Of a stretch of 54,403 bases of DNA, positions 573 through 4,215 are shown piece after piece; position 1 is the first letter of the stretch, and the number at the start of each line of letters is the position of its first letter. Position numbers and translations under genes: made by a program. Below the pieces are notes generated by a model. That model did no database searches and had not been told where the DNA came from. It worked only from the letters and a program-made list of their open reading frames with translations. The stretch spans positions 1 through 54,403 of the forward strand of contig JAUHYR010000007.1 in assembly GCA_030426475.1 (NCBI GenBank), written 5' to 3'. The DNA is from Bacteroidia bacterium. Lineage in GTDB: Bacteria > Bacteroidota > Bacteroidia > Flavobacteriales_E > Vicingaceae.

Positions 573-3500
573 CTACTTTGTCAGTAAGCGGAAATTCTTT
601 GATTGAGTGTCTGCTTTTAGGATTACCTGATAGCTGCCTTCGGCAATGTTTTCAGGAAGTAAAAAGCTTAATGAATTGCCACTAACCTCATGGTTGGATT
701 GATATACCTGTTTTCCATTAATATCTATTATTTCAATACTTGCCGTAGAAACAACTTCTTCAAACGAAAGATTAATCATTCCCCCTCTTTTTGCAGGGTT
801 AGGGAAAAGATTGATTTCTGACGTTATATTCTGAATAGAAACAGCGGTTAAATCATTTATTACTTCAATAGGTTGTTTTAAGGTAGATTGGCAGTCTTGA
901 TTGCTTGCAGTTAATGCTACATTATATACCCCTTGCGATAGATAGTAATGGGTAGGGCTTTGTTGATTGGATGAATTACCGTCACCAAAGTTCCAGTTAT
1001 ATGTACTTGCATTAACAGATTGATTAATGAAATCTACTTTTCCCCCATCAGATAGTTTTACTTTTATAGGAGATTGAAATTTAGCTATAACTCCATTATT
1101 GGGCTGAATAGTAAAGTTTTTAGTGGTTTTACCGCATAAGCCATTACCGGTAATTTCTACACTATATTTTCCCTCTTTAAGGTTTAGAATAGAATCGGAA
1201 GAGTTAGGTGAGGTAAATGTTTTAAGTATTTTTCCACTATTATCTTTCCAGATGTATGTCCAAGGGCCTGTTCCCATAGCCGAAACAGTAGCTTTTCCGT
1301 CATTGCTGTATTCACAAGAAGAATTGATTACCACTACTTCTGAAATTCCGCTAAAGTGAATATAGAATCGATTATTTATGGTTCCAAAGTTAGAAGAGAA
1401 CGAATAGTTTTTAGCTACTTTCAGGTCAATAAATTTGTTGGTTTGTTTATCTTCTAAATACACACATTCAATATCATCCAGAGCAGGTAAGTTGTCAAAA
1501 TCAAACACATAATTTCCTGTTTGTTTTAATGTAAGAACAAGAGGGAAAGAAGTTGGCTTTTTGGGATTAAAAGCGTGTACGGAAAGTTCCTTGTTGTCGG
1601 TAGAAAGTGCTGAAATGGAAGGAACGGAATTATTAGGCCCAAATACTTTATGGGCATCAAAGCTTCCTTCAAATTTTGTGGTAGCTTGTTCATTAAAAGC
1701 AAATGTAACCTGGTCGGTATAGTTATTTAGTGTATTGGTTAAGTTAATTCTGTAGGGTTGTGCCGTAACCATTTTTACAAAAGACATATCGGTATTGTCT
1801 TTTACGCCTTCTCTAATAGTAAGGGAAGGGGAAGCGGCATTTGCTTTTACCCAAAATGCTTGAGAGGAAGCAATAAATTTAGACCCGCCATTGTTCCCAA
1901 TTCCTGCAACGTACGAGCGATATTGCTGTAAATCCGGGTCCCAAATATAAATGGCATTATCCAGTCTTACTTTTGTCCAGGTGGCATCATCCCAATCAAT
2001 AGTGGAAGGGTAAGGGTTTCCTATCATATTCCAGCCATCATCGGCTATTGAGCCTGAATTAGTATAGCTTACTGGAATATTAATGTTAAACTTATTTATT
2101 GGACCGGCAACATCAATTGTAAATGGTTGTGTGCCGGTAATAGTATCGCCACACCATACCCAAAAACCTTTTCCAACACCTAAAGGAAATAGGTTAGATG
2201 GTACAGGGGTATAACCATTGTTCCACAAACCACTAATGGCTTCATTATAGGTATAGATAGATGGCCATGGGTTTAAAGGAGTTGGCCAAAGTGGCCAAAG
2301 TGAACCCAGATATCCTGAAGTAATAAAATTATCTTGCCAGTCATTGATGGTTGCGCCCGAAACAGGAGAGGATAAAAAGCGCCAGTTGGTCGCTCCGGCA
2401 TCAATGTATCGCTGCATTACTATACTTCCCGTAAAGTCGCCATTTCCCTTTATTTCTGCTATAGACGCAGTTCCGTTCGCATCAGATATGAGGGTTAAAA
2501 GATTATTTGACCTTACAGTTCCATTATCTATAGTTAGCACTCCTTTTTGATTGAAACCGGCACCAAATAATTCCACTCCCTCTAAATTATTTACTCCCCA
2601 ATGATAAAACTCTTGTAGGCTGTTTGCTGTTATTCTTTGAGCGCCACAGGAGCTAATAAAGTTTACTGTGCTATTGTTTGCTATAAATGTGCCCAGATTT
2701 TCCCAATTTCCGGTAAGTGTAATGTTGTTATTTCCGGCAATTTCCAGAGATGCGCCTGCTTCAATCTTTAGGTTTCTTGTAAACAATCCGGAAGTATTAA
2801 TAATGGGGTAATTAGCTAGTCCACCCGGAATAATAGCATCTGTAGATGAATTTGGAACTCCATTTGTCCAATTAGAAGCGGTGTTCCAATTGGTGGTGTT
2901 TCCTATCCATGTGGTAGAAACTGAACCGTCCCCTACAAAAAAGAAGCTATCTGTTCCGAAAGTAAAATAATCACCATCATTAAAATTAACTGCATCAAAA
3001 GTAAATACACTTCCTACAACTGAGTTAGCGTTTATTATAGTGGCGTTAGAGAAATTACCATCGTTATCTACTAATAATTTGATGTTTGGAGGAGTTCCGC
3101 TATACAAACTACTTAAATCAAAAGAGACAGTTACTTTTCCTAAATTTCCGGTATCGTCAACTCTCCATGTTCTTTGAACACGAGATTTTAGTGAAGGAGG
3201 AACATTAGTGGAGCTACACATAGAGGCATTGTCATGCCCCCAAAACATAGATTTATTGTTCCCAAAGCCAAGTATGCTTCTAATTCTTAAAATTGTGTTT
3301 CCTTGTGAGTCGTCATGTTTAACAGTATTGGATAGCTTCCAAATTCCACACACATCATGATAATGCCCGGTAGATTCGTAAGCATACCTGTCATTAGAAA
3401 TAGGTAAATTATACTTAGAACTTAAATAATTTTCAATGATATACATTTGGGCATCATTCAATTGCCCGTTGAAATAGAACATTTCTGCAACATCTCCTCT

Positions 3501-4112
3501 ATATCCACCATAAGTAGAACTTCCTCCAAAGCTAAACGTGTTTAACCAGCTAGGGCAATATCCTGAGTTTGCAGAAGCTCTTAGAACACCATCAGTTCTA
3601 ATTTCCGTTCTATTAGGTAAATGCCTTACTGTAGAAATTTCCCATTGGTTATTGGGGTGCAATGTAGGAACGCTACCCCATGTGCAGTTAGGGGCAACAT
3701 GTGTCCTATTCTGATAATTAGGCCAATAACCTCCATGTGTTCCAACGGTTCCCCAAATAGGTATAAGTGCTTGGTTCATTCCTTCAAATACTGATATTAC
3801 CGTAAAATTGGTGCTAGGGACATTAAATAAGTTTTGATATGGACCTACTGAAGAAAAATCAACAGTTGGCATATTATTAATAGCACTTACGGAAGAGTTG
3901 TACCCAGGATTGACTCCGGTTGGATTATTAGCATTACCACTTAAATCATTCCAGGAAGTTACATTGGTTCCATTATTGATTAATTCCCGGTCAGCTCGGA
4001 CCCATATTAAATTGGTTGAAGCATTGCCAACACCACCCGGTCCCGTTTGTGAATATATATACCCTATAAAGAAGGAGAGAAAAAAAGAAAGTAGGTATTT
4101 ATACTTAATCAT
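573..4112 (-). CDS. Secreted multidomain protein with LamG-like, PKD and type IX sorting domains
   Basis: This 1179-residue exported protein starts with a signal peptide (MIKYKYLLSFFLSFFIGYIYS, cleavage near residue 22). A concanavalin/LamG-like region follows (about 30-240, beginning NLIWVRADRE), then a Cys-containing region around 250-390 and a TTWIGNTTNWNTASNW-type segment near 400-440. Further on are a cargo-type middle region (RFLSSPV near 575) and a PKD domain (about 1020-1095, YNWNFGDG). The C-terminal 80 residues (LFPNPAKRGG to the final FRLLTK) form a type A type IX sorting domain. It is expected to be exported by Sec, moved across the outer membrane by the Gld/Por machine encoded later in the window, and anchored or released there. 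Its function beyond surface display or adhesion is not visible. Its promoter and start are embedded in three copies of a 16-mer. Confidence 0.85.
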   Translation of the reverse strand: MIKYKYLLSFFLSFFIGYIYSQTGPGGVGNASTNLIWVRADRELINNGTNVTSWNDLSGNANNPTGVNPGYNSSVSAINNMPTVDFSSVGPYQNLFNVPSTNFTVISVFEGMNQALIPIWGTVGTHGGYWPNYQNRTHVAPNCTWGSVPTLHPNNQWEISTVRHLPNRTEIRTDGVLRASANSGYCPSWLNTFSFGGSSTYGGYRGDVAEMFYFNGQLNDAQMYIIENYLSSKYNLPISNDRYAYESTGHYHDVCGIWKLSNTVKHDDSQGNTILRIRSILGFGNNKSMFWGHDNASMCSSTNVPPSLKSRVQRTWRVDDTGNLGKVTVSFDLSSLYSGTPPNIKLLVDNDGNFSNATIINANSVVGSVFTFDAVNFNDGDYFTFGTDSFFFVGDGSVSTTWIGNTTNWNTASNWTNGVPNSSTDAIIPGGLANYPIINTSGLFTRNLKIEAGASLEIAGNNNITLTGNWENLGTFIANNSTVNFISSCGAQRITANSLQEFYHWGVNNLEGVELFGAGFNQKGVLTIDNGTVRSNNLLTLISDANGTASIAEIKGNGDFTGSIVMQRYIDAGATNWRFLSSPVSGATINDWQDNFITSGYLGSLWPLWPTPLNPWPSIYTYNEAISGLWNNGYTPVPSNLFPLGVGKGFWVWCGDTITGTQPFTIDVAGPINKFNINIPVSYTNSGSIADDGWNMIGNPYPSTIDWDDATWTKVRLDNAIYIWDPDLQQYRSYVAGIGNNGGSKFIASSQAFWVKANAASPSLTIREGVKDNTDMSFVKMVTAQPYRINLTNTLNNYTDQVTFAFNEQATTKFEGSFDAHKVFGPNNSVPSISALSTDNKELSVHAFNPKKPTSFPLVLTLKQTGNYVFDFDNLPALDDIECVYLEDKQTNKFIDLKVAKNYSFSSNFGTINNRFYIHFSGISEVVVINSSCEYSNDGKATVSAMGTGPWTYIWKDNSGKILKTFTSPNSSDSILNLKEGKYSVEITGNGLCGKTTKNFTIQPNNGVIAKFQSPIKVKLSDGGKVDFINQSVNASTYNWNFGDGNSSNQQSPTHYYLSQGVYNVALTASNQDCQSTLKQPIEVINDLTAVSIQNITSEINLFPNPAKRGGMINLSFEEVVSTASIEIIDINGKQVYQSNHEVSGNSLSFLLPENIAEGSYQVILKADTQSKNFRLLTK

Positions 4113-4165
4113 TAAATAGGTATTTATACTTAAAAAGAAACATCAAAACTAAGTATAAATACCTA
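4092..4165. repeat. Three perfect copies of a 16-bp dyad-like site around promoter and start codon
   Basis: TAGGTATTTATACTTA occurs at 4092-4107 and 4117-4132, and its exact reverse complement at 4150-4165. The 16-mer is itself an imperfect palindrome: the halves agree at 6 of 8 positions, with GTAT/ATAC as the core. For the minus-strand gene, one copy lies between the -33 and -7 boxes, one in the 5' leader and one in codons 2-7. The last two copies (4117-4132 and 4150-4165) could also form a 16-bp hairpin with a 17-base loop. It could be an operator set or an RNA structure. Confidence 0.8.
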
Positions 4166-4175
4166 ATATGTCCAA
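4144..4175 (-). promoter_or_regulatory. Promoter of the 1179-aa cargo gene
   Basis: On the minus strand TTG (4173-4175) is followed by a 21-base spacer and TAGTTTTG (4144-4151), a perfect TAnnTTTG -7 box. The predicted start of transcription is near 4137, about 25 bases before the ATG at 4110-4112. One 16-mer copy fills most of the spacer. Confidence 0.6.
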
Positions 4176-4215
4176 AAAATTAGACGAATTAGTGTAAAGC
4201 TAAGATGAGTGAAGA

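Follow-up and report, generated by a model that had tools for sequence, protein, structure and literature searches.

RcsB, NarL and DevR (DosR) are regulators of the same fold as the candidate regulator considered below. Their operators are symmetric sites of 14-20 bp, which occur singly or in arrays and serve in both activation and repression. The half-site sequence and the target genes described here differ from those of these three proteins. A closer likeness in DNA sequence is found in the FixJ operator at rhizobial fixK, TAAGTAATTTCCCTTA, which is also a 16-bp imperfect palindrome with a TAAGTA half-site (PMC4999443). FixJ is comprised of a receiver and a LuxR helix-turn-helix domain, as the candidate is, and the regions that it protects lie upstream of the promoter (PMC4999443). 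A natural site from a relative of the organism studied here (TAAGTAATTTTACTTA, genome G009) shares 14 of its 16 positions with the FixJ site.

Two-component control has also been linked to type IX secretion (T9SS) in Porphyromonas gingivalis, in the PorXY-SigP system (PMC4800418). This system uses an ECF sigma factor to control the genes of the secretion machinery, whereas the locus described here has a palindromic operator at the TAnnTTTG promoter of a cargo gene. At the window gene a housekeeping box of the TAnnTTTG type was found instead of an ECF sigma promoter.

The window is a stretch of 54,403 nucleotides from a Bacteroidia bacterium. It contains three exact copies of the 16-mer TAGGTATTTATACTTA, all inside 74 bp and one of them inverted, at the promoter and start of a gene for a secreted protein whose T9SS type A sorting domain scores above the cut-off of TIGR04183. 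The copies are very probably operator sites for a gene regulator. Arrays of operators for response regulators are of a known kind; the present case differs from FixJ in its Bacteroidota-type T9SS lineage, in its TAnnTTTG promoters and in its targets, which are T9SS cargo and signalling genes. Literature searches returned no paper with the exact 16-mer TAAGTATTTATACTTA, and no description of an operator TAVGTA-N4-TACBTA or of such a T9SS cargo regulon.

The number of exact matches to TAGGTATTTATACTTA expected in dinucleotide shuffles of the window is 0.00. It is the sole 16-mer in the window that is present three times within 100 bp, and no such cluster was seen in any of 40 windows generated by a second-order Markov model. 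Three matches at up to three mismatches occur in 24 of 100 shuffles and are not unusual on their own, the signal of the array is the exactness and clustering of its copies and not the count of loose matches. The 16-mer has the symmetry TA.GTAT..ATAC.TA, which agrees with the description of its half-sites as near-palindromic in an earlier note on this DNA, and the number, spacing and placement of the copies that the note had reported (one inverted copy between the -33 and -7 boxes, one in the leader, one in codons 2-7) are confirmed by the coordinates (Table 1). The note had also pointed to a looser match to the core at 512-521. This match is present, but it is not a real site: it lies downstream of the gene, one half-site is absent and it has four mismatches to TAVGTAWWWWTACBKA, and it was set aside as a chance match.

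Table 1. Features of the array and of its predicted target gene in the window, with the loci of the divergent XRE gene pair of relatives.
Feature	Position	Strand	Description
Putative operator copy 1	4092-4107	+	Over codons 2-7; exact match to TAGGTATTTATACTTA; would span +33 to +48 from the predicted start
Putative operator copy 2	4117-4132	+	In the leader, just 5' of the ATG; exact match; predicted +8 to +23
Putative operator copy 3	4150-4165	-	Opposite in orientation to copies 1 and 2; exact match; between the -33-like element and the -7 box
Predicted -7 box TAGTTTTG	4144-4151	-	Perfect fit to the consensus TAnnTTTG
Weak -33-like element TTTTTTGG	4172-4179	-	Proposed from sequence; 21 nt separate its TTTG from the -7 box
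Predicted start point	near 4139	-	From the placement of the -7 box
Predicted regulated gene, 1179-aa secreted protein	573..4112	-	ORF; PKD domain (PF00801) and T9SS type A C-terminal sorting domain (PF18962)
Divergent XRE gene pair (relatives, outside the window)	L380:1561-2422, L391, L383, L386, L410, L413		

The -7 consensus TAnnTTTG is placed at -12 to -5 (PMC9723704). Read along the minus strand, TTTTTTGG (4179-4172) is followed by copy 3, TAGTTTTG, the predicted start at about 4139, copy 2, the ATG (4112) and copy 1; from direct reading of the sequence, the TA of TAGTTTTG is common to copy 3 and the -7 box. Scans with the sigma-70 consensus were uninformative for a promoter of the TAnnTTTG type at the window gene.

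The 16-mer is one form of a general two-fold symmetric site, TAVGTA-N4-TACBTA. The source assembly (G000) is 97.7% complete and in 139 contigs, and its ORFs were called mechanically. In its 2.87 Mb there are 13 copies of TAGGTATTTATACNNA against 0 for the reversed control pattern. Most of them lie just 5' of genes, which encode T9SS cargo, receiver, PAS and PAS-SpoIIE proteins and the response-regulator cluster of contig C38. Two sites precede the LuxR-type response regulator that heads this cluster. Contig C46 has four sites, of which two are one-mismatch variants; they precede genes for a PAS protein, a PAS-SpoIIE protein and two unknowns. Cargo proteins with a sorting domain follow the sites at C9 and C32, exported proteins those at C42, C43 and C37, and a DNA methylase gene one further site. 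The genome scan that the earlier note had proposed thus places the word at the promoters of other cargo genes, and also at signalling genes.

Further evidence comes from the relatives, which comprise 46 genomes of the order, all from one family, so that related species are not independent. Paired cores number 12, in 8 genomes, against 0 for the control; one of the 12 (G038) falls within a coding region. The pattern TAVGTAWWWWTACBTA, which had been widened on related loci before counting, has 157 matches against 43 for the control (summed per-genome counts over the 46 genomes), and matches to the general site are concentrated in genera g1, g6, g8 and g16. A site with at most one mismatch is present within 300 bp upstream of 19 of the 38 homologs of the window gene (4/7 in g6, 12/19 in g8 and 3/3 in g16), whereas none of 48 other genes at these loci has one and the reversed motif gives 0 (Fisher p = 6e-9, an exact value not to be over-read given the prior widening of the motif). 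The contrast of the homologs with their neighbouring genes is independent of this exact value. In G017 the homolog has an exact copy of TAGGTATTTATACTTA 84 bp upstream. The site was absent from the homologs in the other genera sampled, at one or two per genus. We regard the presence of the site upstream of cargo-gene homologs as the strongest evidence that it would be functional. Together with the genome scan, conservation in other genera strongly supports the suggestion of the earlier note that the copies may be an array of operators through which a dimeric regulator controls a type IX cargo gene.

Two placements of the site with respect to the promoter recur. Six sites of this genome that end in TACTGA (L010, L011, L012, L013, L024 and L025) have TAnnTTTG or a near match 22 nt downstream. 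Among 179 promoter-oriented sites of the family, a set in which some sites are orthologous to each other, TAnnTTTG peaks at 22 nt (7 cases) and 23 nt (4 cases) downstream, where shuffles give 0.19 and 0.30 (11 cases against about 0.5 in all). This spacing would centre the site near -42, which is the usual position of a class II activator. Sites of a second group lie over the -7 box or the start point: TAnnTTTG begins 13-19 nt before the site in 10 cases and overlaps its last TA in 5 cases against 1.2 in shuffles, the latter excess being weaker as the site itself supplies the TA. Copies 2 and 3 of the window belong here. Copy 2, at an offset of -19, has the same geometry downstream of the -7 box as other promoters of the family, and the +14 overlap of copy 3 is also found at four other promoter-oriented sites of relatives. 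The class II spacing of 22-23 nt is absent at the window gene, unlike at the 11 promoter-oriented family sites.

Several loci that carry the site have arrangements of their own. On C32 a gene for a 123-aa receiver is followed after 13 bp by a site (L079:8232) and then by a long exported-protein gene; the same order of receiver-only gene, 13 bp, operator and long exported gene is found again in G008 (L378:1946), so that it is known from two genera. On C101 of the source assembly (L083:1199-4991) the operator heads genes for an N6/N4 DNA methylase, an HATPase_c_3 protein that resembles type II restriction enzymes in PADLOC, and a protein of no recognised family. This operator has the spacing expected for activation, with TAGGTTTG 22 nt downstream of it, and it is possible that these genes are a restriction-modification system under the same regulator as the array. 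Divergent genes for a receiver-only protein and a ThiF/E1-like (Rv1355c-like) protein have one operator between them at L374:823-2659 and its orthologs L382, L385, L389 and L392, the pair being kept in five species of one genus. In another relative (L355) a 71-aa peptide with a double-glycine-like leader (NVVGGG) is encoded 260 bp after a site and is possibly secreted.

The binding protein is probably a response regulator of the NarL/FixJ type, with a receiver and a LuxR helix-turn-helix domain. The regulator of contig C38 (C38:1494-2144) contains a receiver (PF00072) and a GerE domain (PF00196). Two sites 25 bp apart lie at its promoter, and TATGTTTG follows the nearer of them after 22 nt. 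That this regulator in particular is the binder is a tentative proposal, somewhat short of an even chance. Its closest solved structures are VraR, NarL and DevR, all of the NarL subfamily, and in sequence it is closer to VraR/NarL than to FixJ. In genus g6 five species (G008, G009, G013, G010 and G012) have a site 50-110 bp 5' of a LuxR-type response regulator, and in two of the five 22 nt separate this site from TATATTTG. A site also precedes such a regulator in G019 and G023. The LuxR-type regulators that bear the site do not form one clade in a tree (5 changes), therefore some of them may be targets and not the binder. This weakens autoregulation as a proof of a LuxR-type binder, and it was not retained as one. 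LuxR-type response regulators are also present in motif-poor genomes, so that their distribution does not follow that of the motif. When 85,000 genomes were scanned with the C38 regulator, only distant relatives came up, the best with 42% identity.

The C38 cluster (L078:1494-6213) encodes the LuxR-type regulator, a histidine kinase, a receiver, a receiver-PAS-SpoIIE protein and a second LuxR-type regulator, the two LuxR-type proteins being 69% identical. Part of the kinase weakly resembles protoglobin, with a score that falls slightly short of the Pfam threshold. Its best relative among the orthologs searched is 49% identical over the kinase part, and no site was found near this relative.

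A dimeric response regulator of this type would bind TAVGTA-N4-TACBTA at the three copies. One operator would then join T9SS cargo and signalling or regulatory genes into a regulon, both here and in three or more further genera of the family. With a site about 22-23 nt 5' of the -7 box, the regulator would be expected to activate, as a class II activator. At the window gene, with copies over the -7 box, the start region and codons 2-7, it could cooperatively block transcription until the signal changes; repression here is a guess from the geometry of the sites.

Other binders have to be weighed. Some other, unrecognised global regulator, such as a member of a further helix-turn-helix family, may bind the site, with the LuxR-type, LytTR and XRE genes all among its targets. 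The site does occur 5' of these three unrelated families of regulators, and the phyletic pattern of none of them tracks the motif well. We consider this reading unlikely, no candidate for such a protein was found, and the half-site TAAGTA/TACGTA and the 16-bp length agree with the published FixJ site. A related conjecture, which also appears improbable, is that LuxR-type, small LytTR and XRE regulators have this one operator in common, each bearing it at its own promoter, and form a cross-wired switch of the surface display of T9SS cargo. If this were true, the triple array over the promoter and start codon would make the switch of the window gene unusually sharp.

LytTR domains suggest another possibility, namely that a standalone LytTR-domain regulator uses the operator to control T9SS cargo genes and itself. 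Paired sites adjoin small LytTR genes at 5 of 12 loci (in G009, G008, G013, G011 and G020), in G044 sites flank a small LytTR gene on both sides, and about 11 of 17 motif-rich genomes have a small LytTR gene. The window genome is among the richest in sites, yet its only four LytTR genes are all full-length response regulators and none is near the sites found. Sites without a close small LytTR gene are also seen in G010, G012, G021 and G043. Characterised LytTR proteins bind direct repeats, as has been described for AgrA (PMC4227749), whereas the present site is a strict palindrome with a half-site distance of 10 bp. The single copies are palindromic and many promoters have one copy, in place of the paired-repeat unit of the LytTR type. 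A LytTR binder is thus quite unlikely.

XRE-type (HTH_3) repressors fit a symmetric 16-bp operator. A small repressor of this family, with the cargo genes as targets, is suggested by sites just upstream of 8 of 12 XRE orthologs in four genera, with two sites spaced 24 bp apart in some cases. We nevertheless think it very unlikely: no XRE ortholog at E 1e-8 or better was found in the window genome or in most motif-rich g8 genomes, and no XRE gene was recognised beside the sites examined in the window genome. Neither an XRE nor a small LytTR protein explains the array of the window, because neither was detected in this genome; this exclusion holds unless the gene is missing from the 97.7% complete assembly or is too diverged. 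In several genera the small XRE regulator is part of a conserved divergent pair, the operator lying between it and the gene for a protein of 73-139 aa that starts M..(L)TPFI.WL. This partner had no match in Pfam or NCBIfam where tested.

The least credible reading is the RNA switch raised in the earlier note, in which pairing between the inverted copy and a direct one masks the start codon of the transcript: a transcript that started upstream of 4165 would form a strong fold (-23.4 kcal/mol, z -3.6), but the predicted leader, from about 4139, does not contain the inverted copy because copy 3 lies upstream of this start, it folds no better than shuffles (z +1.3), searches for RNA families and tRNAs found nothing with no Rfam family matched, and many sites elsewhere are single and often upstream of the promoter, so this reading was rejected.

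Under the preferred reading, the copies would be the operators of a NarL/FixJ-type response regulator at a T9SS cargo gene. Control of the transcription of T9SS cargo is little described, the papers found concern machinery genes (PorXY-SigP). A conserved operator on cargo, two-component and phosphatase genes in four genera would offer a concrete regulon, with ranked candidate regulators and a testable promoter geometry.
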